A DNA stretch of 64,000 bases from Isoetes taiwanensis (lineage: Eukaryota; Streptophyta; Lycopodiopsida; Isoetales; Isoetaceae): assembly GCA_021234155.1 (NCBI GenBank), contig JAJEKV010000095.1, positions 933,524 through 997,523 on the forward strand. Reading direction: 5' to 3'. The position numbers and the translations under genes were made by a program. Under the pieces are notes generated by a model. The model did no database searches and was not told the DNA's origin. It saw nothing but the letters and a program-made list of their open reading frames with translations. Every line of letters begins with the position of its first letter. Positions within the stretch are counted from its first letter, which is position 1. Positions 12,068-36,517 of this stretch are shown piece by piece.

Positions 12068-14209
12068 TCTTCGATTCTTAATGCTTCATAAAGATTCCTC
12101 TAGATTCCTCTAGATTTTTTTAAGATTCCCAAAGATTCTCTAAAGATTTCGCTAGATTCCAAAAGAATACCCCAAGATTCCTCTATATTCTCCAAGATTC
12201 TATCAAGATTCTCCTAGATTCTCAGAGATTCCATTAAGATTCCCATAGATTCTTAAAGATTTTATGAAGATTCCTTTAGATTCTCCTAGATTCCCAAAGA
12301 TTCAAAGATTCTCTAAAGATTCGCCTAGATTTTAAAAGAATACCCCAAGATTCCTCTAGATTCTCCAAGAGTCTATCAAGAGTCTCCTAGATTCTTCTAG
12401 ATTCTCTAAGATTCCATTAAGATTCCTCTAGGTTTTTAAAGATTTTATCAAGATTCCCCTAGATTCCCAAAGAAGTGCTTGAGATTCCTATAGATTCTCT
12501 TGAGATTCCTCTAGTTCCAATAGATTCTACCAAGATTCCCCTAGACTCCCCAAGATTACATCAATTTTCCTTTAGGTTCTTAAAGATTTTATCAAGATTC
12601 CATTAAATTCCCTTACATTCTCAAAGATGCTCTCTATCTAAGATTCTCATGATATTCCTCTGGATTCCCTAAGATCCTATAAAGATTATACTAGGATTCC
12701 CTCAACTTGCCATAGATTCCTTGAAAATCGCACATTCCAAAAAAATTCTTAGTGTTCGATCATGTTGGCTCCAACTGCAACAAAATAGTGTCAAAGCACC
12801 ACTCATTGGAAAGCTCTCGACGAGAGGAATCCAACGGCGTGAGTCCCACCTTCATCCAATCCCTCTACCGCAACCTATGTGCTTTTGAAGGCGATTAAAC
12901 AAAAAGAAGCTTCCTAGAATGTCCACTAATAAATGCTTTGCCACCTCATTACTTCTTTCTATTAATGAGGGTGCCACCTCACCTAAAAAAGTTGATGAGG
13001 TGGCGTAGCTTAAGCCCTTGGATTTTGATGGGGACATGCATGAGTCATGCATGGGGGCATACACCCCATCTGTGAACCGTTGGATCAAAGGGGAAGGCAA
13101 AATCCTAGCCCTTGATTTTTATGGGGAAGGTGCAAGGAAGGTGCCAAAAAGTGAATTTGGTGTAGCAGATCTTAACCGTTAGATCAAAAGGTGAGCATAA
13201 ATCCTAGCCATTAACTTTTTAATATTAAATAAGTTTTTTTTAAAAGGAGATGAGGTGGCACCCTTATTAATTAAAAAAAGTAATGAGGTGTCAAAACATT
13301 TATTAGTGGACATTCTAGGAAGCTTCCTTTTGTTTAATCGTCTTCAAAAGCACGTAGCTTGCGGTAGAAGGGTCGGATGAAGGTGGGGCCTACGCCATTG
13401 GATTCCTCTCGTCGAGAACTTTCCAATGAGTGTGCTTTGACACTATTTTGTCGCAGTTGGAGCCGACATGATCGAACATTAAGAATCTTTTTGGAATGTT
13501 CGAGTTTCAAGGAATCTATGGTAAGTTGAGGGAATCTAGGAGAATCTTTATAGGATCTTAGGAAATCCAGAGGAATATCATGAGAATCTTAGAGAATCTA
13601 TGGGAATCTTAAGAGAGCATCTTTGAGAATGTAAGGGAATCTAAGGGAATCTTGATAAAATCTCTAAGAACCTAGAGGAAACTTGATGGAATCTTGGGGA
13701 ATCTAGGGGAATCTTCATACACTATATGGGAACTAGAGGAATCTTAAGAGAATCTATAGGAATCTCATGTGCTTCTTTGGGAATCTAGGGGAATCTTGAT
13801 AAAATCTTTAAGAACCTAGAAAAATCTTAATGGAATCTTAGAGAATGTAGAAGAATCTATAAAAATCTTGATAGAATCTTAGAGAATCAAGTGGAATCTT
13901 GGGGTATTCTTTTGGAATCTAGGGGAATCTTTAGAGAATATTAGGGAGTCTCAAATGAATCTTTGGGAATCTAGGAGAATCTAAAGGAATCTAAATGAAT
14001 CTATGGGAATCTTAATGGAATCTCATAGAATCTTGATAGAATCTTGGAGAATCTAGAGGAATCTTGGGGTATTTCTCAAGAGAATCTTTGGGAATCTAGG
14101 GAAATCTTCCTAAAAGTTTAGAGAATCTAAGGGAATCTTGATGGAATTTTAGAGAATCTAAGAGAATCTTCATAGGATCTTCGGGCTTTATGCAGTCCCT
14201 CATATTACA
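12068..14209. mobile_element. Large foldback element with AGATTC-repeat arms
   Basis: Two ~0.95-kb arms (about 12,068-12,985 and 13,243-14,209) are inverted complements around a ~255-bp loop. Outer arm parts are arrays of AGATTC (GAATCT in the right arm) at 10-11-bp spacing. Inner arm parts are unique; for example CTTCCTAGAATGTCCACTAA on the left recurs inverted near 13,310. The right tip reads, inverted, TGTAATATGAGGGACTGC, the same tip as the block at 34,740. The left tip is truncated. There is no coding capacity; the 12,852-13,100 ORF is fortuitous. Foldback or long-TIR DNA transposon is the best description. Confidence 0.85.
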
Positions 14210-14210
14210 A

Positions 14211-14797
14211 GCAAAAGGGGCCAAGTTAAGGCGGCTATTGTGGCAGAAGTTGCAGAGTCTTTTACTTGTGTTTGCAGCAGAATTAAATCTTCCATAACAG
14301 GCTATTCTTCAACAAAATCTTTAAATTCCTCAAGGTGTTCTAGTCTTTCTTCTTCCACGCCACCCTCTTCGCCCTGGGGCTCTTTCAATTCCGTCAAGAG
14401 CCAAGATCTGGCAGGTTTAGATATCGAAGATTGAGTGCTGGATTCTTGTGTTTTTTTTGAGGTCTGCAAGCATCACCTTGACAGATTGGTTGAAACAGGG
14501 CCATGGTTTTCAGAGTATAGCAAAAATTTCTGTGTGGAAGCCAAAGACTCAAAACCGATGTCCTGGTCTTTGTTTTTGCACACATTCTCTTCCAATTGTA
14601 CAGTCATAACAAATAATTGAAAAGTGCTATTGAACACAGTTTTTTGCTCGAAAGTATTTATCTTCTAGGAATAGGTCGATTAAATTAAATTATGATTGTA
14701 AACTAGGAGCTATTCTAGGTAACAAGGATTGCATTAAAGTTATTATGTGACATATTTTTCTCAACCATCACTATGTCTCATAGCCCCGTCTTGCCAT
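14211..14797 (+). repeat. Segmental duplication, copy B, left part
   Basis: Matches 2,250-2,831 with few differences. It begins directly at the foldback tip and is interrupted at 14,798 by the gypsy LTR, with target site GCCAT at 14,793-14,797. Confidence 0.93.
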
Positions 14798-16417
14798 TGT
14801 GACGCTCCCTGAACATATACGACCCCCGGCCGTATACATACGGGGACTTTCCCCTCCCATGGCGACCAACTCGCCATGAGCAGGGCCCTCCGTCTATTTC
14901 GGGCCATCTATAATATGATGCCCGAAAGAAGGACACGAAGGGGTCATTCGGCCCACGCCTTCAATGGGGCTCCTACGTCGCGGAAGCGTGAATACAAGGG
15001 TTAGCACACAACATAAATCACATATAAATAGCCACCACTAAGGGTGGCATATCCATCCAAATACCAACGGCAAAGAATATGCATCTAAACCTAGGAAAAC
15101 ACCCCAAAACCATGGTTCTACCCCGGTTCAGACTCCAGTGAGGATCGACTGACAGCTAGGCCTCAAGAGATCAGCAGACCGAATCTTGACATGGCGCTAT
15201 CGGCATAGAACATTGGCTAGGGTTGTCCACTCCATCCGCCCCTCTGTGCACACTTTGCGTGATGGGTCAATTCACGCTATGGCGCCGCTATAGCCTTCCG
15301 GGAGACGCAGGCTCGAGGCATCACCCCGCTGAGCCTACTCCGGGGTTCATGAAGTCCCGGTCCCGATGAGGCAGGGGAAGCGCCCCTTCCTAATCACGGT
15401 GGCTCCATGGGCGAAGCTAGAGAATACGTGCGCATCAGCGACCCCGCATCCGTGCGGACTTACTCGCCCTAAATCTACTCAAAGTGCAAGGTGCTCCATA
15501 CGGATCACACCTTCCCACTGAGGGAGTGTCGGACCCATACCCGCCCCTACGTGGCCAGGCCATCGAGGTCTAGCTTCGCTATAGGAGTCCTGTGAGCCTT
15601 TTATGTTCGTGGCAAGACCCCACCTCCACTTCACCACTTGTGTTCCTTGTCCGGGTGCTAAGCCCATTCATAGCATCTATGACCCGGTGGGCTCTTGTGC
15701 ACAGCCGCATTTAACGGGATAATATAGGGCTCTATCTAGGAGCATACTACAATAAATAGCCTCAGAGGTCTCTACCCCTTAATCCCCATTCCGTGAGTAA
15801 CACTAGGCTAACAACCACCAATCCATCCATTACAAGCAAAACCAAAATCAAAATATATAGAGAACTTACCTTTACAATCAAGGGTTAATTCCTACGAGTA
15901 AAACACAGAGAAACGGACCAACAACCCAAACGGGTGCCCAATGGGGCTATCCTAGAATTCACAACTACACTAGCCACCCACCTGTATTTCGGCCTCGACC
16001 CGTTGTCATTGGGGATCTCCATCTGCTTGGTCTTGGTGTTCAGCTTGTGTGAGATTCAAGGTGGCTTCACCTGGTCACAAGGGTGGGCCTCCACTTTGCT
16101 CAAGGTGAGTTGTGGTTGATATGGGGGTGGTGATCCACCCTATTGAACCCAATTAGCATTACCATGCTAACCAATCGAGGGTGGCCACGTGGCACCTTCC
16201 CAAACCATAATTAACTTAATTATGGTTTTTAAATATTAGTTCCTTAATTATAGGTAATTATTGTTAACAATTAAATTAGCATAGCTAATTTAATCCCTTT
16301 TAAGTGAACCCCCCCTAGGTTCCCATACCCCATGTGGCGTATGTAATGGCATGCGATATCCCTGGTGACGTGTCAACATATTTATACTTATACCGTATAA
16401 ATACTTGGAACGTCACA
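14798..16417 (-). repeat. Gypsy 3' LTR
   Basis: 1,620 bp, TGTGACG at the left and CGTCACA at the right on the plus strand: TG..CA with 7-bp inverted ends. Pairs with 26,360-27,993. Differences are mostly short clustered indels. Confidence 0.95.
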
Positions 16418-17000: not shown

Positions 17001-18260
17001 CTACCCCTCTACATATTCTCGGCGAATCAAGTCTTCAAGCTTACCGCCGGGAGCGGGGTTGATAGCATCGTTGATGGTGCGGCCTTGAGATTCGCACATA
17101 AAATCTGGATAGTGCTTCTCAAGGTCTGTTTCCATCACCCACGTAGCATCCTCCACCGGCAAGTGCTTCCACTTGACCAGGTATTGCAACTTTTGAGTCC
17201 TCCGAGTCTGTTTATAAGCCCGGTCAAGGAGAGCTTCAGGCACTATCTCGAGCTGCTCCTCTGTCATTTCGAGGAGGGTTGGGGTTTCCAAAACCTCCTC
17301 TGGATCAGGGGTGTGCTGTTTCAGAAGACTCACATGGAAGACCTTGTGGATCTTCAAACGGGGCGGCAGATCCAAGCGATATGCCTGTTCTCCAATACGC
17401 TCGGTGATTTTGAATGGGCCCGCCCATCTGGGCGCTAACTTCTTGCAGTTACCAATTTTAAGCTTGGCTTGTTTTACCTTAATCTTAAGCCAAACTGATT
17501 CACCCACCTGAAAGACTCGTGGGGTCCTGTGCTTATCGGCTACACTCTTCTGGCGACTGCGTGCAGCCAATAGGTAACCACGAACTTCCTCGACCAGAGC
17601 TTGCATTTCCAAGAGGAGTTGCTGAGAAACCTCCACTTTAGAAACGGGGTTATGCCACGTGTCTGGAGTAAGGCATTGGTAACCATAATTTATCATAAAG
17701 GGAGACATTCTGGAAGATTCCTGTTTCATACTGTTATAGGCAAATTCAACCAGATAAATATAGTCAGCCCATTGGGATTGCTTACTCCACACATAACTTC
17801 GTAGCATATCCTCTATAATACGATTGGTACGCTCTGTCTGACCATCCGTCTGAGGATGATAAGCTGTACTCATGGCAAGCTTGGTTTGGATGGTGGTGAA
17901 GAAATCTTTCCAGAATGCACTTACAAATTTGGGATCCCTGTCAGATACAATGACCCGTGGCATTCCGTGCAACCTGAAGATCTCCTTTGCAAAAAGCAGA
18001 GCAGTATCGAAGGCGGTGTCCGTGGTACGACATGGCAAGAAATGAGCCATTTTCGACAATTTATCGACCACTACCATTAACGCATCATATCCACGGAGAG
18101 TACGTGGAAGGCCCACAATGAAATCCATGGTTATCACCTCCCACTTAACGTTGGGCACATCCAAAGGTTGCAACTCTCCTGGAGTCCTTAATTGTTCGCG
18201 CTTTGGTTCCGCGGGACATACTTGACACACGCTTAATGTACCGGCAATGTCTTTCTTCAT
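17001..18260 (-). CDS. Gypsy integrase with C-terminal chromodomain
   Basis: 419-codon frame beginning in the zinc-binding part (MKKDIAGTLSVCQVC). Catalytic residues: MDFIVGLP, IVSDRDPKF, and TERTNRIIEDMLRSY, the D,D-35-E triad. The GPY/F-like region contains LAPRWAGPFKITERIGEQAY and KIHKVFHVSLLK. The C-terminus carries a chromodomain, KLQYLVKWKHLPVEDATWV then LEKHYPDF, which defines the element as a chromovirus; these domains steer integration to chromatin by contacting histone marks. The first H of the HHCC finger lies upstream near 18,350 in another frame (a break near 18,300), so this is the 3' portion of a broken pol polyprotein. Confidence 0.93.
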   Translation of the reverse strand: MKKDIAGTLSVCQVCPAEPKREQLRTPGELQPLDVPNVKWEVITMDFIVGLPRTLRGYDALMVVVDKLSKMAHFLPCRTTDTAFDTALLFAKEIFRLHGMPRVIVSDRDPKFVSAFWKDFFTTIQTKLAMSTAYHPQTDGQTERTNRIIEDMLRSYVWSKQSQWADYIYLVEFAYNSMKQESSRMSPFMINYGYQCLTPDTWHNPVSKVEVSQQLLLEMQALVEEVRGYLLAARSRQKSVADKHRTPRVFQVGESVWLKIKVKQAKLKIGNCKKLAPRWAGPFKITERIGEQAYRLDLPPRLKIHKVFHVSLLKQHTPDPEEVLETPTLLEMTEEQLEIVPEALLDRAYKQTRRTQKLQYLVKWKHLPVEDATWVMETDLEKHYPDFMCESQGRTINDAINPAPGGKLEDLIRREYVEG

Positions 18261-18357: not shown

Positions 18358-19295
18358 TTACGCACCGAAGGAAGTATGAGGTACACACAACTTGTCCTTG
18401 TGATACAACAAATTGCCCTCTTTCTTATATGACCGGAAAGCGTCGCGTTCTTTATCTGTGCGTGCCTCCTTATTAAGACTACTCCAAATTTCAGAGAACT
18501 CAGGATCCGTGGCCAAAGTCTGTTCTATCTGTTTGCCAAACTCACTTGTGAGTGTCGAAATTGCATTACAATGGGTCCGGGTTACCAAGGGATGGCGTGA
18601 TAATGCATCTGCAACCACATTGTGCTTTCCAGGCTTATACATGATCTCAAAATCATATTCCTCGAGAAATTCCATCCATCTCCTCTGACGGAGGTTGAGA
18701 TTGGGTTGGGTGGTTAAATATCGGAGACTTTGGTGATCTGTGTCCAACTGGAATCTTCTACCAAGGAGGTAGTGTCTCCATATTCGCAAAGCGCGAACAA
18801 CAGCTAGCAATTCCTGGTCATGGGTAGGATACCGCTGTTCTGTTTCATTCATCTTCTTTGAATCATATCCCCTCCTGCATTAGAACCCCACCAATGGCAA
18901 TTTTGTTGGCATCTGTGGCCACTAGTTTATCCTTATCAGGATCGGGCAGCGTGAGAACGGGTGCTGAGGTTAAGGCATCCTTAAGCTGCTGGAAACTTCC
19001 CTGAACCTTAGTCTTCCAGTGCTCCATCCAATCCTTCACCTTCTCATGCTTGGTAAGATTTGTAAGAGGGGCTGCAATCCTTGCAAAATCCTTTACAAAT
19101 TTTCGGTAATATCCCCGCTAATCCCAAGAAACCATGGACTTCTGGAGACATTTCTGGAATAGGCCATTCCCTTACGACCTCTATCTTTGCGGGATCTCAG
19201 CAATTCCCTCTGCTGAAATAATATGACCCAAGTAATCAACCTTTGGAGTGGCAAACTTGCACTTAGAGAACTTGGCAAAAAGTCGATGACGCGTC
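18358..19295 (-). pseudogene. Gypsy RT thumb and RNase H (frameshifted)
   Basis: The 18,852-18,358 frame gives NETEQRYPTHDQELLAVVRA, LDTDHQSLRYL and ADALSRH: the RNase H core with its terminal Asp, followed by the linker to integrase (LLYHKDKLCVPH). The preceding part, to 19,295, is RT thumb and connection sequence scattered over frames (LALQKLRR is visible at 19,300-19,320), showing at least two indels. Confidence 0.88.
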
Positions 19296-20399
19296 TTAAC
19301 TTTTGTAGAGCCAACTTAAGATGTTTCTCATGCTCTGTAGGGTCTTACTGTAGATGAGAATGTCGTCAAAGAAAATAACAACAAAGTCATCCAAGTATTG
19401 TCGGAAAACATCATTCATCAACCGCATAAATGTTGCGGGGGCATTAGTTAATCCAAAAGGCATAACGGTAAACTCATAATGCCCATATCTAGTGCGAAAA
19501 GCAGATTTATGGATGTCTTCCTCCTTAATTCTTATCTGATGGTATCCTGAGCGAAGATCAATCTTTGAGAAATACTTGGCCCCTTGCAACTGATCCATTA
19601 GATCATCTGCCCTTGGCAAAGCATAGCGATTTTTGATGGTATGCTTGTTGAGTTGCCGATAATCAATACACATTCTCAAGGAGCCGTCCTTTTTCTTCAC
19701 AAAAAGAATAGGGGCGCCAAATGGCGAAACGCTAGGTCGAATAAAACCTAGGTTTAGCAGCTCTTGAAGTTGTTTCTTAAGCTCTGCCAACTCTGGAAGA
19801 CGCATACGGTACGGGGCCTTGCTGGTAGGCTTAGTACCGGGCTCTAAAGCTATCTCACATTCTACCCCTCTGAAAGGAGGAAGCTTCTCAATTTCGTCCG
19901 GGAAGAGATCGCTAAATTCGTGGAGGATACTGGCAATGCCTCGGGGCAAGGTGTTGATTACTTGGTTTTGTTTAGCATCTGACTCAATAGAAGCAAGTCT
20001 GATAACGCAGAGGAGCTTTTGCTTGCGTATAGCTTTATCTAACTGTCGAATGGACATAGACTGGAGGATAGGGTTGAATGGTTCACCTTTTATAGTTACG
20101 CGGGCTCCATTTGCCGCGTTGAAGGTAACTTCTCTCTTCTCGCAGTCTATGTTGGCTTTTGCAGATGCCAAGAATTCCATCCCAACAATGAGGTCGTATT
20201 TGCCAATATCCATTAACTCGGCACCCATAGCAACTGGTGCGCCTGGCAGCTGCATCTTAAGATTGATGCGACGACCATGAGTATGTCTAACCTTACCACT
20301 GGCTAAAGTGACAGGCCTCGGTCGTGACCTCAGGGTTTTTAGCTGTAGGACCTGGGCCATTCTAGGAGAAGCAAAATTATGGGTACTCCCCGTATCCAT
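19296..20399 (-). CDS. Gypsy protease and reverse transcriptase
   Basis: The frame starts at the protease active site [12 protein letters not shown], with a second flap/core motif [12 protein letters not shown] begins around [16 protein letters not shown] and shows [67 protein letters not shown] and [11 protein letters not shown]. The active site is [13 protein letters not shown], with both Asp residues kept. The frame breaks at 19,296 before the thumb. The ATG is internal to the normal gag-pol polyprotein, because gag's zinc knuckle lies just upstream. Confidence 0.93.
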
Positions 20400-20700: not shown

Positions 20701-21783
20701 TCAGTAAGAGGTTTCGAACGTCCTTGCCAGCATTGGTTTTTCTGGCGTGCTAAAAGCGACTTTCTTCTCCTGGCGACCGTAAGTGCTCTGCTGAGAGGGC
20801 CCCGGGCTTGGAGAGCGGGGTTTGTACGGTGTGGATGGCCGGGGCGCGTAGTAAGTAGCGGTGGCGAATCGAGCCACGGGTATGTCCTCCTCGAGGCTCA
20901 ACGCTTTAGCCTCGGCCTCTGCAACTGATTTCGGATCTATGGCTTTAACCATTCGTTTGATCGAGGGTGCCAATCCCTCAATATAACCCTCCACTGCCCT
21001 TTTCTCATTCATACCGGGTACATACAGCCTTAGGCGCATAAACTCATCCGTGTAGGCCTGTACGGACATACTTTTCTGCTCCAACCTGTAGAAAGTTTGG
21101 ATCTGTTGGCATTTGTGTGCACGGGGCACATAATGCGACTTGAAGGCCTTGGCAAACTTTCTGAATTTGCATCTGCTCCTGTCCAAGTGTTTGGCTCTGG
21201 CATAGCCCTTCCACCATATACGGGCAGCTCCGGTAAGGTTTGTGGTGGCAACCTTTCCGGTATCTCTTTCTGTCATGCCATAAGACCTTCCGAATTCCTT
21301 CATTCCATCCAACCAGGATTCGGCATTCAATCCGCCTCTAGACTTCCCATCAAATTGGGCCAACTTTCTATTCTTCCATATGCTGGTTATAGCCGTATCA
21401 ACCGTCTTGCGGTACTCCTTATCTCGGCGCTTTGTATGGTCGCCAGATGATGCAGATGATTCAGTTGACACTGAAGTGGCAGATTTTGAAGAGGTGGCAG
21501 TGTCTCTGGAGGAGCTCCGTCGGCGTTTAGAGTGGGACCTCTTTCGCATCAGTACAGGACTGGTTCGTGGTGGGGACGGCTGCTGTGCAGGTGGACTAGG
21601 TGGCAACGGAGGTAACTCCGGTGCATCCTGTTGTACATGCTGTGGTGGGTTAGCATGCAAGACATAGGCTTGTAATTCGCCTAACTGTCTTTTCATCAGC
21701 ATCAATTCTTGTTCGGGTGTTAATCGACTTGCATTTGAGGGTGGCTGCCAAGCGGCGTTGCGTGCCCCGTCTATATTAAACAT
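20701..21783 (-). CDS. Gypsy gag
   Basis: ATG at 21,783, 360 codons. A proline-rich segment and an Arg/Ser-rich basic segment (RKRSHSKRRRSSSRD) precede the capsid-like retrotrans_gag domain (FDGKSRGGLNAESWLDGMKE, then GAARIWWKGYARA and FYRLEQKSMSVQAYTDEFMR). Intact. It stops before the knuckle, which is in a separate frame in this copy. Confidence 0.92.
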   Translation of the reverse strand: MFNIDGARNAAWQPPSNASRLTPEQELMLMKRQLGELQAYVLHANPPQHVQQDAPELPPLPPSPPAQQPSPPRTSPVLMRKRSHSKRRRSSSRDTATSSKSATSVSTESSASSGDHTKRRDKEYRKTVDTAITSIWKNRKLAQFDGKSRGGLNAESWLDGMKEFGRSYGMTERDTGKVATTNLTGAARIWWKGYARAKHLDRSRCKFRKFAKAFKSHYVPRAHKCQQIQTFYRLEQKSMSVQAYTDEFMRLRLYVPGMNEKRAVEGYIEGLAPSIKRMVKAIDPKSVAEAEAKALSLEEDIPVARFATATYYAPRPSTPYKPRSPSPGPSQQSTYGRQEKKVAFSTPEKPMLARTFETSY

Positions 21784-21994: not shown

Positions 21995-22515
21995 TCATAG
22001 CGAAGCATAGGAACACACAAAAACCGGAAAATGTGGCTTAAGGGTTTTGCGTGGGATACATGACAAGATAGCGCACACTCTCACGCGGCGACCGACGAGC
22101 TTGTAACGTGCCCAAGCCTGGATAATAACGGGTTGATAATCCCAAGTGGGGCTAATAATAAGACGGTTGAAAAGCCTTCGCAGTGCGTAGAAGATTTGCC
22201 AGAGATGATCATTAGCATCCTCAAAAGCTTCATGTGGGGTCATATTCCAATAATCCCAAGTGCGGGAAAGGGTCCATTTCAGATCATCGTAAGCACGTTC
22301 TCGAAGGAAGTAACTATTTCCATCCCCTTGTCAGGATCATAAGGTTGTTCCGGCACCCTAAGCTCCGCTATCTCATCGTCAACTTCCCGTTCAGGATACT
22401 CGTTGTATCGTTCCCCATAGTCCTGTTCAGGGGGTCCCTATTCATCTCTCCTTATCTGGGATGTTATCCTATCTTCGTATTCCGCCAGCGTTTCTTCTGC
22501 AAAAGGGCGGAATGA
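21995..22515 (-). pseudogene. Accessory frame C of the gypsy element (broken)
   Basis: Spread over two frames: an acidic stretch (RYNEYPEREVDDEIAELRVP) and then, after a shift near 22,290, DDLKWTLSRTWDYWNMTPHE, ALRRLFNRLIISPTWDYQ and AWARYKLVGRRVRVCAILSC. Composition and continuity look protein-coding, but no family was recognised. It lies directly upstream of gag, and nothing suggests it is part of gag. Function unknown. Confidence 0.5.
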
Positions 22516-22689
22516 GTATATTATACTAACAATTCCAGGAGGCTTAATAACTTGTCATGGAAGAGACTTATTCAAAAATTGTATTGGCATTATGTATTGG
22601 ACTAATACAATAAAGAGAAATCACATCACGAATAATAACCATATTTTAAACAACAGTGATTTCCAAGGCAAAATTCATAACACAATAAT

Positions 22690-24081
22690 TTAGGAGCTGA
22701 ATCCCTCGTCTTCATCTATTGGCTGAGGAGGTGGACGATAACGCATCAAAGTGGCGCTGGGGCTAGCAGAGAGGGCGGCTTGAGTTGCGGCCCTCGTGTG
22801 GTAGACAGTAGCCAAAGGTGCCGCCACAAGGAGGCGCATGCTAGTGCAGCCCGCCACGTCTCCCAACGCTGCTATAGCCAAATCTCTACGGACCAGAATA
22901 ATAGTGGTGACACGATAATCAATCTTCTTATGGCCCGCTGAAGTAGATATGGCTCGGAGCGCCCACCAAGAAGCTTCGTAAGAGGGCCCTAAATTCTTGA
23001 GAAGAACAGCACCTCTCCTTGGCGGAAAGCTGAGAGAAAGAATCGGGCCATATGGTTGCCCATTGCCCTAACTTGAGGGTCGGTGGAGGTCTCAGCCTTC
23101 CTTCTCCAAGTCGATGGGGAGCTTTTTCTTCTTCTTCTTCTTGCCTCTCATCCCTAAGGCTGACCTTGGTGTCCCAAAGGTCTTCCTCGTCTTGATCCCC
23201 CTCTCCCATAGTGATTTGCAGAGGCGGATCTCGAAGAAGAGACCGTGTCGGGGCCGCAAATTGCTCTTCTGGAGGTTGGGGGGTGTCAGCTAGCAAGTAC
23301 TGGCGAAGTGACAGAAGAGTCTCAACAGGCTCTTGTTCCTCGGGCCGATATGCCAATAGGCTCTCTAATGTGTAGGTTGCACCACCGGTGTAGTGAAGTC
23401 GATGAAGTCATCTTGGCAATATTCCCTTAAGATCATAGAGAACCTCTACTTTCCCTTGGCGGACCCCAGAAGAACATGGTACGCCCACATGATATCGTAA
23501 GGATTAGGTACTCTTGGTCATTCAAGAGTCTTGTAGGGAAGAAGGTTTAACCCTTCGGGTTTGAGGGGCCTTCTCATGGTACCGGGAGAGCTTCAGTAGC
23601 AAGCTCCTTCCACCTCACAAAATCCCCGCTCATTGACGACCGTCATCTTCTGGGTCAGGAGGTAGAGGTGTAGAAGAATGCTCGGCAGGGATCTCCTCAT
23701 CCTCTATATACTGGTCCATAATGATGGCCAGTGCGAATCGGGCCTCAAAACAAGTTTCCCGATCTATTGTGGCAATAGGGAGGTCGGGTCCCTCGCCGTC
23801 GATGCCCTTGATGACGTTACGGGCATGATCATCACCCCTAACATCCGGTGTAAGGTGTGGAAGTCGAGGTAAAGCTGCTCATCGTCATCATTACCAACGA
23901 TGCGGGCACAATCTCCTCCCCATAGAACCGGAAGGAAGCGCGTAATAACGGGTGGGGCCCGGGTTGGAGATAAGATCTACGGGCCGAAGCGGTAGGGGTG
24001 AAGAAGATCAAAGGGAACCGCAGGGGTCCCAATGCTCTCCGATCCCACGTACCCACTCGCCGCCGAGGTTGGGCGAGCCAT
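22690..24081 (-). pseudogene. Accessory frame B of the gypsy element (broken)
   Basis: Begins at ATG 24,081 (MARPTSAASGYVGSESIGTP) 258 bp after the H3-fusion stop, and runs through at least three frame changes. Middle segments include SLRQYLLADTPQPPEEQF, an acidic/Glu run and HRLGEGRLRPPPTLKLGQWA. The last in-frame part ends RYRPPPQPIDEDEGFSS at 22,690. No family was recognised. Length before decay would have been about 440-460 residues, similar to the H3-fusion ORF. Confidence 0.5.
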
Positions 24082-24338
24082 GAGTATGTGAAGGCGCAAA
24101 GGAGGAGGAAGAAGGCTATTTGGAACAAGAAGGAAAAATGAAACCCTAATGGCCAAAAAGGGCTTTATACTTTTTGGCACATTTCCCGAAATTATTAGTA
24201 AATTTATTATTTATTTAATAACATGTATATTTTTTCAAAATATATTATTTATTTTTTTTTTTTCCACAAACCCAAAACTGGGACTAGTACATGGGTAAAT
24301 TACAAAATTTATACAGCGGAAAGGACATGATCGCCTAG

Positions 24339-25664
24339 TCATCTAAGATCCCCTCGGATCCTTCGTGCCAAGTGAAGGTCCTTGGGCATAATAGTGACCC
24401 GCTTCGCATGTATGGCGCACAAGTTGGCGTCACTCAAAAGCTCAATCAGGTACGCCTCGGCAGCGTCTTGTAATGCAAGGACCGCAAAGGCTTGAAACCG
24501 CAAGTCGGTCTTGAATTCTTGAGCGATCTCCCGCACGAGTCGCTGGAAAGGAAGCCGGCGGATCAATGGCTCGGTAGTCTTCTGATACTTGCGTATCTCC
24601 CGAAGAGCTACCGTGCCAGGTCGGAACCTGTGGGGCTTCCGTGGCTTAAGGGTCGCCTTGAGCGACGGAATGGATTTACCGCCTGTCAAAGGATGCTTGG
24701 TGCGCTCCACGATCGACTCCCTTCTCTGAGCCGATGTCTTCTTGGCGATCGCGGCATCCTGTTGCAGTCGGGTCTTGTAGTGCACCCCACCCCTAACCGG
24801 TCTAGATTTGGTCCTTTTCAGTCTCCGGTTACCCGGCCCGGTCGATTGCTGTGGGTTTGCCGATGGGTCCATGTCAACAGGGTTTGTCTGGGACTCAACG
24901 TTCTGAGCCGCACCTAGGTCCTGCTGTCTATCATCAAAATTCTGCTGCTGCCCCTCCTGCTGATGGCCTAGCTGCTCTTCCTGCTCGTGCTCCTCCTGTT
25001 GGCTATGGAGGTCTTCGCCTTCTTTTCGGAGCCGCTCTCGTTCTTCAGCCCTGGCCTCTCTCTCCAAACGCACTTGAGTACGCCGGGCAATCTCAGTATG
25101 ATACCGGTCCGGCCGTGCCCGCATATCTTCCTGGATGGATTCTAGATGGCACTGGCTAAACCGGGGCGGAACATTTTCAAAAATGAAACTATTGAGGCTT
25201 TCATTCCAAGAAAAGGTGGGAAGGTTAAAGTATTCCTGGTAGGTAAGTATACGACCCCTTCCCAAATAGTAAAAGCGATCCATCCTTAGGTCCGGTGGAG
25301 CGCTGGCTATCTGGTGCAAGTCTTCTAGTCGGGCCAGATGCATGATCCTCTGAGCTTCGTTCCGACTAAGCTCCACAGGGTCTTCATCTGGTCCTGCCAA
25401 AGGGTAAAACTTCACCACTGCCCATGCATGGTCTGGCTGCTCCACAAGAGTGTAGTCCTGCCCAGCTTCGTTCAACTTGAGGAGGAACCGCTCGTTGAAG
25501 TGGAAGATAGGGTAGGGGACTCTTCGGCCCTCGTCAAAGTGCTGGACAAAAAGATTAAGGATGGTATCTATTATTGGGTCCTCGTCCCCTAGATGCTCGA
25601 CTAAAAACAAACGGTGATATACATTCAGGTTTCTTGGTCTACACGGCCGGCTTTGAAGCGGCAT
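24339..25664 (-). CDS. Histone H3 fusion protein encoded inside the gypsy element
   Basis: Intact 441-codon ORF from ATG 25,664; the frame is open farther upstream, but only a TTG is available there. Residues ~1-200 ([18 protein letters not shown] ... [15 protein letters not shown]) match no family I recognise. Residues ~205-260 are charged and Gln/Glu-rich, probably coiled coil ([17 protein letters not shown]). Residues 320-441 are histone H3: a short tail ([12 protein letters not shown]), then [57 protein letters not shown] and [15 protein letters not shown], ending RRIRGDLR. Helix lengths and loop 1 are canonical H3, not CENH3-like. F at position 41 is H3.1-like and L at 90 is H3.3-like in plant numbering. 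The tail lacks the K9-S10 and K27 segments. It lies on the same strand as gag-pol, between 5' LTR and gag. Domain identity is certain; role unknown. Confidence 0.93.
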
Positions 25665-26345: not shown

Positions 26346-26358
26346 GGCTCTGATACCA
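26346..26358 (-). other. Gypsy primer binding site (tRNAiMet)
   Basis: The element strand reads TGGTATCAGAGCC, complementary to the 3' end of plant initiator tRNA-Met, one base from the 5' LTR end. Confidence 0.95.
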
Positions 26359-26359
26359 C

Positions 26360-27993
26360 TGTGACGCTCCCTGAACATATACGACCCCCGGCCGTATACA
26401 TACGGGGACTTTCCCCTCCCATGGCGACCAACTCGCCATGAGCAGGGCCCTCCGTCTATTTCGGGCCATCTATAATATGATGCCCGAAAGAAGGACACGA
26501 AGGGGTCATTCGGCCCACGCCTTCAATGGGGCTCCTACGTCGCGGAAGCGTGAATACAAGGGTTAGCACACAGCATAAATCACATATAAATAGCCACCAC
26601 TAAGGGTGGCATATCCATCCAAATACCAACGGCAAAGAATATGCATCTAAACCTAGGAAAACACCCCAAAACCATGGTTCTACCCCGGTTCAGACTCCAG
26701 TGAGGATCGACTGACGGCTAGGCCTCAAGAGATCAGCAGACCGAATCTTGACATGGCGTTGGCTGGCATAGAACATTGGCTAGGGTTGTCCACTCCATCC
26801 GCCCCTCCTGTGCACACTTTGCAGATGGGTCAATTCACGCTATGGCGTCGCTATAGCCTTAGGAGACGCGGTGCTCGGAGGCATCACCCCCGGCTGAGCC
26901 TACTCCGGGGTTCATGAAGTCCCGGTCCGATGAGGCAGGTCGGAAGCGTCCCCTTCCGTAATCACGGTGGCTCCATGGGCGAAGCTAGAGAATACGTGCC
27001 GCATCGGCTGACCCCGCATCCGTGCCGACTTACTGCGCCCTAAATCTACTCAAAGTGCAAGGTGCTCCATACGGATCACACCTTCCCACCTGTGGAGTGT
27101 CGGACCCATACCCGGCCCTCACATTGGACCGGGCTATCGGGTCTAGCTTCGCTATAGGAGTCCAGGAGCCTTTTATGTTAGGTGCAAGACCCCACCTCCA
27201 CTTCACCCTTTGTGTTCCTTGTCCGGTGCTAAGCGGTACCATAGCATCTATGACCGGTGGGCTCTTGTGCACAGGCCGCATTTAACAGGATATCTGAGGG
27301 GCTCTATCTAGGAGCATACTACAATAAATAGCCTCAGAGGTCTCTACCCCCCTTAATCCCCCATTCCCAGAGTAACACTAGGCTAACAACCACCAATCCA
27401 TCCATTACAAGCAAAACCAGAATCGAAATATATAGAGAACTTACCTTTACAATCAAGGGTTAATTCCTACGAGTAAACACAGAGAGAACAGACCAACAAC
27501 CCAAACAGGTGCCCAACAGGGGCGCTATCCTAGAATTCACAACTACACTAGCCACCCACCTGTATTTCGGCTCGACCCGTTGTCATTGGGGATCTCCATC
27601 TGCTTGGTCTTGGTGTTCAGCTTGTGTGAGATTCAAGGTGGCGCTCAGCTCTGGTCACAAGGGTGGCGCTCCACTGCTCAAGGTGAGTTGTGGTTGATAT
27701 GGGGGTGGTGATCCACCCTATTGAACCCAATTAGCATTACCATGCTAACCAATCGAGGGTGGCCACGTGGCACCTTCCCAAACCATAATTAACTTAATTA
27801 TGGTTTTTAAATATTAGTTCCTTAATTATAGGTAATTATTGTTAACAATTAAATTAGCATAGCTAATTTAATCCCTTTTAAGTGAACCCCCCTAGGTTCC
27901 CATACCCCATGTGGCGTATGTAATGGCGTATGTATCCCTGGTGACGTGTCAACATATTTATACTTATACCGTATAAATACTTGGAACGTCACA
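26360..27993 (-). repeat. Gypsy 5' LTR
   Basis: 1,634 bp, same ends as the 3' LTR (TGTGACG..CGTCACA). Followed by the second GCCAT at 27,994-27,998. Confidence 0.95.
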
Positions 27994-29064
27994 GCCATTG
28001 CCATGTGGGCATGTTGAGACAAAATGTTTTTGTCTCCATTACCTCTGGTCCATCTGAATTTGTCAAAGGCAACCTGGAAAAATGGCTAATTTTTGTTTTT
28101 GCTGCACCCTTTTGACGTGGCATTCATCTCGGCACTTGATTTTGAGATTGTATGGTTTGGATTTGTGCCACGTTTTAGAGGAGGAGGTTTTTTTTTTTTG
28201 GTTTGTTTTGGGGGTGGGGGTTGGGGCTGTAAATTGAAACCTGTCCGGTACAAATTCAAAAGCAGTGTTCAAAAATTTCAAAGGCAACATGAGCTGGTTT
28301 TGTTTCTTCTCCGAATTTTGCTTCCGATTTTGTCTTCCTATGCTTGTCCAAGTCAGCGGTTGAAGAGTGCAATGTGAACACCTTAATTTGACCAAGTGGA
28401 AACCTACTTCTACGCTAATGTGGATGTGCCCTTAGTGTAAATGAGCCTCTTTGTTACTTCATGACATAGTTGTCTTAGTACTAGATTATTACATCGTAAA
28501 CCATTAGAAGGCAAAATTCCTCGCTTTTTTCATGTTTGTTCAGAAACAGGTATTTTTTGTCCTGGTGGTTTCTGGCGGCACCGCTTACAACATTGCCATA
28601 GCTTCAGTTAAATTGAATTCATATTATAAACTGACAGAAAGACCTTCTCCATTTCAATCATATAGTATCGCGAGATCGAAAAAGCTCCTTCCGGTGTCTC
28701 GTGATGTGTGGGGAATCCACAACCAGGTTAATCGACAAAACGAGAAGGTAAATCGACGAAGAAATTTGTTTAAATCCTAAAGTAAATAAAGGATTCAATA
28801 GTTGCATGCTATTTTCCGACCCTTCTTAAAATACTCAAATACCAAAACACTATGGTCCAGCCTTCAAATATAGACAAATTCTCAGAAAAAGGTGCACTAT
28901 ATATATACTATTTAATACACCTGGATGAATACGGTAATCAAATCACAAAACCCACTATTATGATAGATATTACAATGGGAACAAAAGACCAGGAGGAGAA
29001 AGAAGCTTATTTTATATGTATCCTCTCTTCAATCCAATCCAATCCTTTTATGAAATAATTTCAA

Positions 29065-29446
29065 TGAAATTAAATATGATGCATATGGCAGAAAAACAAG
29101 AACCTTATATATTCATACATAATTGAATAGATTATGGAATCATATATTCATGTATGAATATGAGAATACATATCTGTCTTGAGACAGTTGCAGACTGGAA
29201 GGGCTCCCCCGTGAGTTGAATGTGTTTTAATATGGAAAATAGGACAATTTATGTAAGCAGGTGAAAGGGCATATGAAAGGTCATGAGGGCATGTCTATTG
29301 GGAAAAGACATGGCTTATGGAAAAGGTATGATTATTGGTCATGGATCAATGAGGTGGACAAGCCTATGTGGCTTAGGGGATGACGTGGCAATAATGTGCG
29401 TTGGAGTAGAGGCAGCGGATAACTCACGGAATCTATTCCGTTAACA
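29065..29446 (-). repeat. Copia 3' LTR, copy B
   Basis: 382 bp, near-identical to 3,908-4,289. It lacks the TATA-containing stretch found in the right LTR. Confidence 0.92.
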
Positions 29447-29458
29447 CTCCCCCTTAGC
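29447..29458 (-). promoter_or_regulatory. Copia polypurine tract, copy B
   Basis: GCTAAGGGGGAG on the element strand, abutting the 3' LTR. Confidence 0.85.
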
Positions 29459-31111
29459 CGATGCCTGTCGGACTATCGTTTATGTTGAGGCTTTGTCTGC
29501 ATAGAATAAATTTGTCTGTTGGTAGAGGTTTTGTAAGAAAATCTGCTACCGTATCTTCAGTGGGGCAATATTGAAGTTGAATCTTCTTCTCAAGAATCTT
29601 TTCTCGTACAAAGTGGTACTGGATCTCAATATGTTTTGATCTAGCATTGATTCTTGGTTGTGTTGCCATGCTGATGCAACTTGTGCTATCAGTCTTGATT
29701 AACACTGATCCTTGTGAAGGTATCATGATGTCTTCAAGTAATCTGCAGAGCCATATAGCTTCTTTTGTTGCTTGGAAAATAGCTATATATTCTGCTTCAA
29801 CACTTGATAAGGAAATCGTAGGTTGCTTTTTACTACACCAGGAGATGGTGCTTTTTCCAAGTTGAAAACAATATCCAGTTGTGGACTTGCGAATTTCAAC
29901 ATCACTTGCATAAGAAGCATCACTATATCCTGTGAGTATGAGCGAACCACCTTGTAATGTAAGTCCAAAGTTAGGGGTTCCAGAAAGATAGCGAAGAATT
30001 CTAGCGCAGTGCATAGGTCCTGGATTACTCAAGAATTGACTCACAAAACTGACTGCGTGAGCAATGTCAGGTCTTGTACATATAGCAAGATACATGAGGC
30101 GCCCCTCTTGCACTTGCATATAGGGTGTATTCTTCATGATCTCTTCTTCTTGAGGGTTTTGAGGACACATATCTTTGGACAATTTTATATTCATATCCAT
30201 TGGAGTACTTATTGGCTTACTCTTATCCATCTCAAATTTCTTCCAGAGGTCTTCAATATATTTTTGTTGATTGAGATGAATTGTCTTCTTTTTCTGATTT
30301 CTTAGGACTTGGATTCCTAAGCGGTAAAGCAATTTCAACAGAATCGGTCATTTGAAATTCTTTGGCAAGGATTTGTTTACTCTCGCTCAGAAAATTCAAG
30401 TTGTTGCTTATTAATATGGCATCATTCACATACAGAGCTAGGAGCAATATATGACAGTTTCTCTTCTTGATATAGATGTTACTGTCTGCTCCCCCTTGCT
30501 CATAGCTATGTGACTTGAGAAAGGTGTCAATCCGTTGATACCATGCTCGTGGAGACTGCTTGAGACCATATAAAGACTTATGTAACTTGCATACTAAAGT
30601 CTCTTGTCCAGGTTGAACATAACCTTTGGGTTGTTTCATGAAGATATCTTCTTCCAAGTTACCATTGAGAAATCACGGTCTTAACATCCAATTGATGGAT
30701 GTGCATATCTTGAGCAGCAGCAAGTGTGAGGAGAGTTCTGATGGATGTCATTTTGACAACATGAGAGAAGGTATCAAGGTAATCAATCCCTTCAATTTGA
30801 GAATATCCTTTTGCTACTAATGTTGCTTTATAACGATCAATGGATCCGTCAGGTTTATATTTGCGTTTAAAGAGCCACTTACAACCAATTGCCTTACGCC
30901 CTAGTGGGAGTGGTTGCAAGGTCCGTGTTTGATTCGTCATGGGAGAGTCATATTCATAAGTCATAGCATCATGCCATTCTTTGGAATTTGGATATGATAA
31001 AGCATCTTTAAGAGTCAATGGATCACCAACTATGGGCATAGCAAAATGCTTCTTTAGTGTTTGCATGGAAGACTTCAAAGCCTTCAAAGACGGAGTACGT
31101 TTTCGACCATA
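29459..31111 (-). pseudogene. Copia reverse transcriptase and RNase H, copy B (broken)
   Basis: Same domains as copy [36 protein letters not shown] and the mutated active site LALYVNDAILISNN. RNase H is more complete than in copy A because CSKKQPTIS is retained before LSSVEAEYIA. Frame breaks occur near 30,658 and 30,320-30,338; copy A is open at both, so they are specific to B. The TGA separating this part from integrase is shared with copy A. Confidence 0.9.
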
Positions 31112-32545
31112 TCAACTTGTACTTGGGGATGCCACTAGAGGAAGTGGGCTATCCATAAATTGTTGCACATGATCAGGGGCTTCATCACTCGAGGTGATTG
31201 TTTGGGCATCTTGAACATCTTCATCTTGCATAATTTTGGGAGCAAGTTCTTCAATGTTTGTAGTTGCTGGGGCTTCCTCTGGAACTATAACAGGAGCTTG
31301 TTGCTCTGCTTGACTAATTGTAGGATTGAGTTGCATGTTATCATCTTGAGTGAGAGGAGGTATAGGAGGATAGAGGACTTGCCAAGGGCCTTGGCACCAA
31401 GATGTAGGAGATACATCTTTCAGATTCCAGAAGGTATCTTCAACAAACGTAACATCTCGGGAGATGAAAACCTTCTTGGTAAGGGGGTTGTACATACGAT
31501 ATGCCTTGGCAGACATACTGTAGCCAACAAAGATACGCTTGATACTATGGTCCTCCCATTTTCTTCGTTTTTGTTTAGGTACATGCACATATCCAATACA
31601 ACCAAACACTTTTAGATGGGATAATGTTGGTTGCTTACCAATCCAAGCTTCATATGGAGTTTGATCTTGCAATGCTTGTGTGGGCAATCGATTTTGAATA
31701 TAAGTAACTGTTGCTAGAGCTTCGGCCCAAAAATAATGAGGAAGTTGACTCAAATGCAACATACTTCGTGCACTTTCAGCAAGAGTGCGATTCTTTCTCT
31801 CGGCTACACCATTTTGTTGAGGAGAGTATGGGGCCGTCAAATTTCTGTCAATTCCATGTTGGGCACAGAAACTTGTGAATGCCTTGGAGATATATTCACC
31901 ACCATTGTCAGATATGAGACATTTGATGGTTCTTCCAAGTTGGTTCTCAGCTAGAGCTTTGTATTCTTTGAAAGCTTCTAAAGCTGCAGATTTCTTTTTA
32001 AGAAAATACACAGTGGTGTATCTAGAGTGATCATCAATAAATGTGATGAAATATTTACAACCATTATTAGAAAGTATTTCGGACTCACCAATGTCAGTGT
32101 GGACCAAGTCAAGTGGATGCTTGGCTCTTGAATGACTGACCTTGGGAAAGGGTAACCGATGATGCTTGCCAATTAAACATGCTTCACATACTGGCAAACT
32201 TGTATTTGGCTGAATATTGAAATCTCGAACCATCTTCTTGGAGTGGAGTTGCTGCAAGGCATGCAGTCCAGCATGTCCCAATCGTAAGTGCCATTGATAA
32301 ACATCATTGGGAGTAGTGGTCACTGCATTGATAGAGTGTTGAGGCACATTAGAAAGCGGGAATCTATAGAGACTTCCTTCCCGTACGCCTTGAGCAAGTT
32401 TGCGTCCATGAGAATCTTGAAGTTGGCACTCATTGATGCCAAATTGGACTTTTAAGCCAACATCATAAATCTTGCTAACTGAGAGCAAGTTCTTGGTCAA
32501 GCGGAGTACATGTAATACATCATGTATTGTTTTGATCGATCCATC
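31112..32545 (-). pseudogene. Copia integrase, copy B
   Basis: Starts MPDGSIKTIHDVLHVLRL at the MITE junction. The HHCC finger, HTDIGE, ISDNGGEY, APYSPQQNGVAERKNRTLAE and the integrase C-terminal region are all legible in one frame, ending at the shared TGA after VASPSTS. The catalytic triad is intact. Confidence 0.91.
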
Positions 32546-32553
32546 GGGCATTT

Positions 32554-33157
32554 CATGGAATAATTTAAGGGCTAAACTTAGCTATTTGGCGATTTTTTAG
32601 CACATTTTCAAAAAGAATTGGCTAAAGTAAATGAAAAAAAATGTGGAAAAAATTAATAATTTTAGCTTAAGTTTTTTCGGGACTGCATCAATCCTAGAGC
32701 TCTTTAGCCAAACACGAGAAAGTAAAAGAGTCAAATTTTGTATTGTTTAGCTAAACCAGAGAAACTTTTAGAATGAATTTCGGGCTAGTTTAGCTAACAT
32801 CATTCTAGTTTATAAGAAATATATGATTAGTAGTTTAGTTTCTAGCATTATAAATTAATTTGAGGCCTAGACTTGCTAGTTAGCATTATTTTAGAATGTC
32901 TTCACAAAGAAAATGACTAAAATAAGTGTAAACAATTGAAAGGAAGTATAGTAATTTGGCTTGATATTTTTCGTTGGCCACACCAGAGAAATTTTTGGGA
33001 TGATATTTGGGTTAGTTTAGCTAAACGCTATAAAGTATGATAGGAAAAATATGTAGAGTTTAGCTAAACCACAGAAAGTTTTGGGATTAATATCAAGCAA
33101 GTTTAGCTAAAGTCATTCTGGCTAATAAGAAATATGCGATTGGTAATTTATTCTCTG
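32554..33157. mobile_element. hAT-like MITE in copia pol, copy B
   Basis: 604 bp with the same ends and the same 8-bp duplication GGGCATTT (32,546-32,553 and 33,158-33,165) as copy A. It was therefore inserted before the segmental duplication. Confidence 0.88.
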
Positions 33158-33165
33158 GGGCATTT

Positions 33166-34258
33166 GCACCGAAACTTTGCCTTGTCCTTCGATACTGAGG
33201 GGACTATCATCTCCTAAGAGAACAGTCTGCCCAGATGGCATCTTTTGATATGTGATGAAAGAATCACGTTGTGGAGTCATATGAGCAGTACATGCTGAAT
33301 ATAAAAACCAACCACTAGAATGGGTAGTCACAGAAGAACATGAAACTTGTGAGACACATAACCTTTCTTGATGATCATTGATGATCACGTTTGCCTTGTT
33401 ACGCTCTTTTGCAAGTCGAGTGTAACAATCTTTGGCATAATGGTTTGGTTTGCCACAATAATTGCATATTAATTTGCGATTCATGGGCTTCTTGTTGAAT
33501 CCTTTGCTTGCATCATCCTTATTGAAGGATTGGTGATTGAAGGACGAATTGGATCGTGAATTGGGTCGAAACTTGGGCTTGCCTCCAGAGTTTGACCGCT
33601 TGTTGCTTGAGTATAAAGCAACAACCCCATCACCAGAAGTGTTCAATGACTTTCTTCTAGTTTCTTCTTGAAGAAGCATGGCTATGGTGGATTGCAGTGA
33701 CATGATATTAGAGAGACGGCAAGGCTGATCTGGCGCCTCCCATTGCTTGAGCCCTATAGATTGTATAAAAGTATCATAGGAAGGAGGCAAACTTCCTAGA
33801 AGGGTCATCACTGCATCAGAATCTTGAATTGGAGAGCCAACTGCGGCAAGTTGCTCCAAAAGTGTCTTGAATTCATTGATGAATTCGGCCATGCTTTGAT
33901 TTTCCACCATTTGGAGAGATTTATAAAATCGTTTTCTTAGAAAAAGTTTGGTGCATGCATCTTGAGGTTCATACATACCAACTAGATGTTCCCAAGCTTC
34001 TTTGGACGTTTTGGCGCTGCTGACATGAATCACCACATTGTCCTTCAGATTGAGTATGTTAGCAGCGAGTGCTCTACCATCTCGGGCCTCCCATTTGGCC
34101 TTCTCTTCTTGGGCAGTTGGTCGCGCTTCAGAACCATCAACCATCCTCCATAAATCTTTTTCTAGAAGTAGCATCTTAATTTTATGTTTCCAGTGATGGA
34201 AACCGACGCCGTCAAATCTCTCTATGAGACGATGTGTCTCGGTTAAAGTAGCAGCCAT
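33166..34258 (-). pseudogene. Copia gag and protease, copy B
   Basis: One open frame from ATG 34,258 through gag, the CCHC knuckle (CNYCGKPNHYAKDC) and the protease start. The protease motif reads SGWFLYSACTAHMT: the catalytic Asp is Tyr (GAT to TAT), which should abolish proteolysis. Cut at VSVQMP by the MITE. Confidence 0.92.
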
Positions 34259-34500
34259 AATTATGATTTGATTACAAAAATCAATCGGGGGGGTAAAAAA
34301 ATTCAGAGAATTTCTGTCAGCCTCAAAAATGTGCTTCTTCTGCGGTAAACGCCATTTCTTCGTGCTGCTAATCTCTGATTTACTTTGAATATTGCCTTCC
34401 GTATTCTTGATTCTCTACGTCGTGCGATTCACTTATTGATGCGAGAAATAGCACGCTGGATTCTTGATTTCTTGGCCATTGCTTAGATCGTGAGAAACCA

Positions 34501-34513
34501 AGCTCTGATACCA
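34501..34513 (-). other. Copia primer binding site (tRNAiMet)
   Basis: The element strand reads TGGTATCAGAGCT, directly next to the 5' LTR. Confidence 0.94.
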
Positions 34514-34600
34514 TGAAATTAAATATGATGCATATGGCAGAAAAACAAAAACCTTATATATTCATACATAATTGAATAGATTATGGAATCATATATTCAT
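34514..34600 (-). repeat. Copia 5' LTR, copy B, R/U5-side part
   Basis: Matches the first 87 bp of the left LTR (TGAAATTAAATATG...ATATATTCAT). The next bases contain TATAAATA on the element strand (34,606-34,613), a likely LTR TATA box absent from both left LTRs. Confidence 0.85.
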
Positions 34601-34739
34601 ACAAGTATTTATAGGACTCAATACAATAGGCTCCTGTGAAACTTGTTTTTTATATATGGGCCATTATAAAATGAACCAAGATATTTTGGAAAAGGGGGGT
34701 TGAGGATTTTTGAGAAACTTGTATTTTTATACAAGTGTT

Positions 34740-36178
34740 TGTAATATGAGGGACTGCATAAAGCTCGAAAATCCTATGAAGATTCTCCTAGATTCTATGA
34801 AGATTCTCTTAGATTCTCTAAAATTCCATCAAGATTCTCAAAACTTTTAGGAAGATTCCCCTAGATTCCCAAAAATTCTCTTGAGATTCTCCTAGATTCC
34901 CAAAGGTTTTCTTAGATTCTTAATGCTCCATAAAGATTCCCTTAGATTCTTAAGATTCTATGGAGATTCCTCTAGATTTTATTAAGATTCCCAAAGATTC
35001 TCTAAAGATTTCCCTAGATTCCAAAAGAATACCCCAAGATTCCTCTTTATTCTCCAAGATTCTATCAAGATTCTCCTAGATTCTCTGAGATTCCATCCCA
35101 TAGATTCTTAAAGATTTTATGAAGATTCCTTTAGATTCTCCTAGATTCCCAAAGATTCATTTGAGACTCCCTAAGATTCTCTAAAGATTCGCCTAGATTT
35201 TAAAAGAATACCCCAAGATTCCTCTAGATTCTCCAAGAGTCTATCAAGATTCTCCTAGATTCTCTAAGATTCCATTAAGATTCCTCTAGGGTTTTAAGGA
35301 TTTTATCAAGATTCCCCTAGATTCCCAAAGAAGCGCTTGAGATTCCTATAGATTCTCTTGAGATTCCTCTAGTTCCAATAGATTCTACGAAGATTCCCCT
35401 AGACTCCCCAAGATTACATCAATTTTCCTCTAGGTTCTTAAAGATTTTATCAAGATTCCATTAGATTCCCTTACATTCTCAAAGATGCTCTCTTGAGATT
35501 ATCATAGATTCTCTAAGATTCTCATGATATTCCTCTGGATTCCCTAAGATCCTATAAAGATTATACTAGGATTCCCTCAACTTGCCATAGATTCCTTGAA
35601 AATCGCACATTCCAAAAAAATTCTTAGTGTTCGATCATGTTGGCTCCAACTGCAACCACTCATTGAAAAGCTTTTGACGAGAGGAATCCAACGGCGTGAG
35701 TTCCACCTTCATCCGACCCCTCTACCGCAAGCTACGTGCATTTGAAGGCGATAAAACGAAAAGAAGCTTCCTAGAATGTCCACTAATAAATGCTTTGCCA
35801 CCTCATTACTTCTTTTTATTAATGAGGATGCCACCTCACCTCCTTTTAAAAAAAAACTAATTTAATATTAAAGAGTTAATGGCTAGGATTTATGCTCACC
35901 TTTTGATCCAATGGTTAAGATCTGCTACACCAAATTCACTTTTTGGCATCTTCCTTGCACCTTCCCTATAAAAATCAAGGGCTAGGATTTCGCCTTCCCC
36001 TTTGATCCAACGGTTCACAGATGGGGTGTATGCCCCCATGTATGACTCATGTATGCCCCCATCAAAATCCAAGGGCTTAAGCTATGCCACCTCACCAACT
36101 TTTTATCCTAAGGGCCAAGATCAAAAATTTATATCCGATATGCCATTTTGTAACTACCCCCATGAGTTTCTATATACA
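34740..36178. mobile_element. Foldback-derived block inside the copia LTR
   Basis: Begins at the foldback tip TTGTAATATGAGGGACTGC and runs through an AGATTC array (to about 35,600), inner arm, and loop. The loop is inverted relative to the one in 12,068-14,209. The right arm is missing; the block ends in sequence of unknown origin (about 36,100-36,180). Confidence 0.8.
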
Positions 36179-36181
36179 TAT

Positions 36182-36217
36182 TAAGATAAGATAAGATAAG
36201 ATAAGATAAGATAAGAT
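36182..36217. repeat. (AAGAT)n microsatellite
   Basis: Seven pentanucleotide units at the junction where the copia LTR resumes. Confidence 0.9.
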
Positions 36218-36512: not shown

Positions 36513-36517
36513 TTCAA

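Follow-up and report, generated by a model that had tools for sequence, protein, structure and literature searches.

A histone H3 fusion gene inside a chromovirus

The window analysed here, a 64,000-nucleotide stretch of Isoetes taiwanensis DNA (contig JAJEKV010000095.1), contains a Ty3/gypsy chromovirus with an additional gene, ORF1, between its 5′ LTR and gag (Table 1). Paired LTRs delimit the element and the short target-site duplication ATGGC flanks it on both sides; gag, protease (PR), reverse transcriptase (RT), RNase H and integrase (IN) follow one another in this order on the minus strand, and the integrase carries a chromodomain at its C-terminus (PF00385, 1.7e-9). The two LTRs have diverged by a K80 distance of 0.0535 over 1610 sites. 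Next to the 5′ LTR lies the primer binding site TGGTATCAGAGC, which we take to be of the tRNA-iMet type. The original prediction had placed ORF1 within the LTR boundaries, on the gag-pol strand of a copy with a broken pol, and this is what we found: the pol of the window copy is broken up into separate frames. By eye, the integrase chromodomain appears to be devoid of two of the three cage aromatics, a likeness to group II plant chromodomains as far as the available part of the literature describes them.

ORF1 has 441 codons from its ATG, and the frame stays open on to 25718. It was predicted to be intact, and the open frame is indeed present; however, residues ~3-22 of the window copy differ from the other copies that cover this part, as if they were locally out of frame, with the remainder in frame. 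The window ORF1 therefore seems to be slightly damaged.

Table 1. Features of the H3-bearing element in the window
Feature	Position	Strand	Remark
5′ LTR (TGTGACG...GTCACA)	26360..27993	-	TSD ATGGC precedes
Primer binding site TGGTATCAGAGC	26347..26358	-	presumably tRNA-iMet type
ORF1: N-domain, Gln-rich linker, basic region and histone H3 fold	24339..25664	-	
ORF1 N-domain, residues 22-200	25065..25601	-	without relatives found outside these elements
ORF1 linker, variable, charged/Gln-rich, residues 201-300	24765..25064	-	
ORF1 basic region (conserved) and altered H3 tail, residues 301-340	24645..24764	-	
ORF1 histone H3 fold, residues 341-441	24342..24644	-	Pfam, solved chains
ORF2 remnant, broken in window copy	22690..24085	-	approximate ends, by eye; ~450 aa where open elsewhere
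ORF3 remnant	21995..22500	-	approximate ends, by eye; ~170 aa where open elsewhere
gag (Ty3_capsid, Retrotrans_gag)	20701..21783	-	
Protease and reverse transcriptase	19296..20399	-	frame stops within RT
RNase H	18358..18852	-	
Integrase and C-terminal chromodomain	17001..18260	-	
3′ LTR	14798..16417	-	then TSD ATGGC

A probable Ty1/copia element (29064-36515), recognised by eye from gag, integrase and RT-like frames on the minus strand and from repeated flanks, adjoins the H3 element. Near it lies an imperfect array of ~31-bp repeats (34780-35600), of which inverted copies are found at 14074-14213 beside the H3 element.

Copies and subfamilies in the genome

We searched the plant's own genome (one plant genome; 1,658,258,908 bases in 1110 contigs) with the ORF1 protein and scored 92 of 13,080 first-look candidates, and the resulting counts are lower bounds. 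Of 100 matches, 16 fragments were set aside and 84 counted, the window included. Of the 84 listed, 41 are free of stops and 43 contain them; among the near-full matches listed, 33 of 62 are stop-free. Stops in about half of the listed copies are as expected of old insertions. The case that no other copy would carry the ORF, named in the original prediction as the finding that would speak against it, is contradicted by these at least 84 non-fragment matches.

Twenty copies of subfamily A, to which the window belongs, were fetched with their flanks. In 19 of them an LTR of nearly full length that resembles the window's precedes ORF1 on the same strand; L011 has short matches only. Within the fetched stretch gag follows downstream in 15 copies, one of these matches being weak; none was found there in L015, L018, L022, L024 and L026. 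The variant L028 (4961-9901) has its gag ~260 bases past ORF1, without ORF2 and ORF3.

At least four subfamilies (A-D) occur in this genome, with a common layout of N-domain, linker, basic region and H3 fold: B (L036-L038 and L043), C (L039, L041 and L042) and D (L040). With a subfamily B query we obtained at least 99 genome matches (94 of 12,170 candidates scored). The flanks that we read, L044 and L047 for B, L045 for C and L046 for D, all show the order LTR, ORF1-H3, ORF2, ORF3, gag, some frames being broken, and PR-RT is reached in three of the four. Sequence related to the window LTR ends no more than ~0.8 kb upstream of ORF1 in all four flanks and is in pieces in L045-L047; an exact primer binding site is present in two (L045 and L046). 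In the D element a second LTR shares 96-97% identity with its partner, and the target-site duplication is TTATC. ORF1 is hence an extra ORF of the internal region that recurs across the lineage, as do conserved additional ORFs (aORFs).

A search of the genome for the H3 family yielded at least 150 matches (150 of 8705 candidates scored), 15 top-scoring and 135 others. The five inspected among the top-scoring 15 are all canonical host H3, and the ten inspected among the other 135 are all of the element type.

A complete H3 fold and an altered tail

The last ~100 residues of ORF1 match Pfam Histone at 6e-41, far beyond chance, and among solved chains the C-terminal part is closest to H3.3 (E 7.4e-49), with H3.1 chains next. 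These two results rule out chance similarity and bear out the histone H3 predicted at this end of the protein. The histone fold is complete and aligns to H3 without a gap. In 23 copies the element folds, all of host length, are 81-89% identical to host H3 over 97 ungapped residues; invariant residues occupy 62 of 95 fold positions and 60 of these 62 hold the host residue, and at positions 86, 105, 107, 124 and 135 the host residue is found in none of the 23. Centromeric histones (CENH3/CENP-A) have diverged strongly from H3 and carry a loop 1 insertion, and the ungapped alignment to host H3 at this level of identity rules out that ORF1 encodes one. In an unrooted tree (30 rows), a branch with support 100/98 sets the 17 element folds apart from host H3. 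This grouping is consistent with descent of the element folds from one H3 gene and would agree with one capture of H3, in line with the captured H3 of the original prediction.

The H3 tail of ORF1 is internal, and a canonical tail with K4, K9, K27 and K36 at a free N-terminus was not found in the protein. A K14-like motif (GGK/AGK/GAK[ST]xP) is kept in 23/23 copies; counting back from it, the place that aligns with K9 holds proline in 22 copies, leucine in one and lysine in none. At residue 36, 21 of the 23 have R and two have K. With its tail both internal and altered, ORF1 does not encode a canonical H3 but a fusion with an H3 fold. An ARKS motif lies upstream of the tail in two of the 23 copies (L041 and L042), where it might possibly serve as a modifiable site, and it counts against a simple reading in which no mark is possible.

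Purifying selection and the history of the 5′ end

Among 15 open subfamily A copies, pairwise dN/dS (ratio of means) was lowest in the H3 fold (0.044), followed by the N-domain (0.087), the basic region with the tail (0.119) and the linker (0.26). Pairs without usable dS (saturated or ≤0.02) were dropped, so that 93 to 105 of 105 pairs were kept depending on the region. Open frames were present in 17 copies (16 of the 20 fetched and the window), of which L015, being truncated, and L020, with scrambled stretches, did not enter the calculation; both are also omitted from the 23-copy tallies, as are L009, L010, L017 and L018, which contain stops. In the codons of the H3 fold, position 2 differs in 0.9% and position 3 in 27.3% of comparisons. 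A second set of copies gave 0.043 for the H3 fold (70 pairs), 0.078 for ORF3 (70 pairs), 0.038 for the protease (15 pairs), 0.060 for RT (6 pairs) and 0.173 for the gag capsid (119 pairs). The value for ORF2 (0.337) is unreliable because the window ORF2 is broken, and it was not used. A kept H3 fused to an element protein had been proposed from the window alone; it recurs in many copies and several subfamilies under strong purifying selection.

Within L044, L045 and L046, ORF1 and ORF2 have diverged from the window far more than protease and RT have. Between all B-D flanks and the window the H3 folds are 79-86% identical and the N-domains 36-46%, with dS saturated in both. The dS of protease and RT is 0.21-0.77 (three of four flanks), that of gag, 0.96-1.81, lies between or above, and that of ORF3 is saturated in three flanks and 0.19 in L044. 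In L044 itself, protease dS is 0.21 and ORF1 dS is saturated. As dS is saturated at the 5′ end and low in protease and RT, the history of the 5′ end is deeper than that of pol in these elements. This suggests that a 5′ module may have been exchanged between elements, and recombination would be the simplest cause of its deeper history.

The N-domain, ORF2 and ORF3

Among 5.8 billion proteins the N-domain had no relative at E values up to 1; since annotated proteomes often omit element proteins, its absence elsewhere is weak evidence. In viral contigs, 63 pattern matches to the N-domain gave no confirmed case. Against PDB and Pfam it produced weak, chance-level matches only, and a single-sequence fold model reached a pLDDT of 44, with no usable fold. 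Its comparison with ORF2 gave no match but is flawed, one of the 12 ORF2 rows (L028) actually being gag.

ORF2 (~450 aa) and ORF3 (~170 aa) precede gag and recur in all four subfamilies sampled, without known relatives. Both are open in several copies and broken in the window copy (21995-24085). ORF2, as single sequence or as profile, had no match in Pfam (E up to 10) or PDB, one member reaching E 0.12, and ORF3 had none in Pfam. From its conserved C-terminal part ORF2 had looked by eye like a second, diverged histone, and Pfam and PDB gave no support for this.

Discussion

In this study we show that a chromovirus lineage carries an H3 fusion that is element-borne, present in many copies and under selection, and whose folds group together. 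How could such a gene have arisen, and what might it do? We propose that a host H3 coding sequence entered the lineage by a single capture, that it became fused behind an element-specific N-domain and that, as the first gene, it was retained while the lineage split into four or more subfamilies. As the fold hardly changes and the rest drifts, the protein would most likely pair with host H4 and join nucleosomes via this fold, although a conserved fold by itself is no proof of nucleosome entry. The ~340-residue N-terminal part would then be exposed on the nucleosome surface, where it could tether element proteins or new cDNA to chromatin in the nucleus, or alternatively mark the chromatin of the target or of the element. 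The altered tail without the K9 lysine may in addition make such nucleosomes hard to silence. That the element makes a nucleosomal H3 which tethers the N-domain to chromatin for its own use has, in our judgement, about an even chance of being right. More tentatively, and with some doubt, one could imagine an element lineage that writes its own chromatin: the fusion H3 would replace host H3 on new copies or target sites, bear an element-specific receptor domain and escape marking at K9, so that this chromatin would be both addressed and shielded, with ORF2 and ORF3 as putative partners in the same nuclear system.

Other roles would use the same protein differently; cDNA packaging, the marking of insertion sites and competition with host H3 had been suggested as possible in the original prediction. 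If the fusion H3 were loaded mainly on element DNA, it could, lacking K9 and K27 sites, block the heterochromatin marking of new copies. The absence of lysine at the K9 place in all 23 copies, the arginine at residue 36 in most of them and the universal K14-like motif are consistent with such an anti-silencing role; however, the missing K9 could simply result from the capture of a 5′-truncated H3, which accounts for the missing tail equally well, two copies have the upstream ARKS, and preferential loading on element DNA is itself putative. We consider this role somewhat unlikely. It seems improbable that the protein works inside the particle, its basic H3 part binding element RNA or cDNA with the help of the N-domain: that ORF1 precedes gag on the same strand and that a conserved basic region lies ahead of the fold would suit packaging or condensation, but a DNA condenser need not retain a whole H3 fold, and this one is nearly frozen. 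Moreover, L028 has, by eye, a zinc-knuckle-like CYRCMRPGHYMQNCP downstream of gag, so that a nucleocapsid seems to be present already.

The free protein could also be a decoy that ties up histone chaperones or modifiers, upsetting host chromatin in trans, since chaperone binding would still be expected of the conserved fold. By itself this offers no account of an N-domain under purifying selection, and we see a slim chance for it. Capture of host genes by transposable elements, H3 among them, is on record (PMC6710886, in the part of the report considered), and ORF1 might likewise be a functionless fragment of host H3 carried along. We regard this as very improbable: dN/dS is 0.044-0.26 across all regions, far from the value near 1 that the original prediction had set against its own proposal, many copies are open and four subfamilies share the gene. 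The numerous copies and the dN/dS values together rule out a one-off passenger.

Since ORF1 is the first gene behind the LTR, gag could be expressed only through splicing, reinitiation or another start. An ORF1 before gag is found in Ogre/Tat elements as well. Plant LTR retrotransposons are known to carry lineage-conserved aORFs in their internal region, upstream positions included, although the most frequent ones follow pol, ahead of the 3′ LTR, unlike the pre-gag ORF1 (PMC7264820, in the sections available). The word 'histone' is absent from the main text of that review, and from that of the Isoetes genome papers (including PMC8566536). Plant chromoviruses, as far as the available part of PMC3350952 describes them, share LTRs, the gag-PR-RT-RNH-IN order and the chromodomain with the H3 element, which differs from them in three additional pre-gag ORFs, the first with H3.

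In the portions of the literature available, H3-carrying hAT elements of fungi and the histones of viruses come closest to ORF1. In Dothideomycete fungi, hAT DNA transposons carry histone H3; there too a mobile element has captured and multiplied an H3 coding sequence, but it is a DNA transposon and not an LTR element, and the part of the report considered mentions no fusion to an orphan domain (PMC6710886). The element described here has LTRs, gag and pol instead of a hAT transposase and terminal inverted repeats, and a hAT-borne H3 is thereby ruled out. According to the parts of the sources considered, bracovirus H4 closely resembles the host histone, has a longer N-terminal tail and joins host nucleosomes (PMC9145170; PMC5423620), and two phycodnavirus-like MAGs encode H3-like proteins whose N-terminal extensions, ~170 residues long, lack known homologues (PMC9145170). 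What these have in common with ORF1 is a histone part behind an N-terminal extension; they differ in belonging to DNA viruses and, in the best-studied case, in being another histone (H4). The terms 'retrotransposon' and 'retrovir' are absent from the main text of the viral-histone review (PMC9145170), and a search of open-licence literature (titles and beginnings of abstracts) found no retroelement-encoded histone.

In large plant genomes, matches to 'histone H3' can be element genes. Retroelements are usually regarded as readers of chromatin, by way of chromodomains and integrase tethers, and not as suppliers of histones. With the H3 fusion they would join the short list of histone-encoding selfish genomes, and a selected, family-wide fusion of this kind would make both integration targeting and escape from silencing testable via a single protein.
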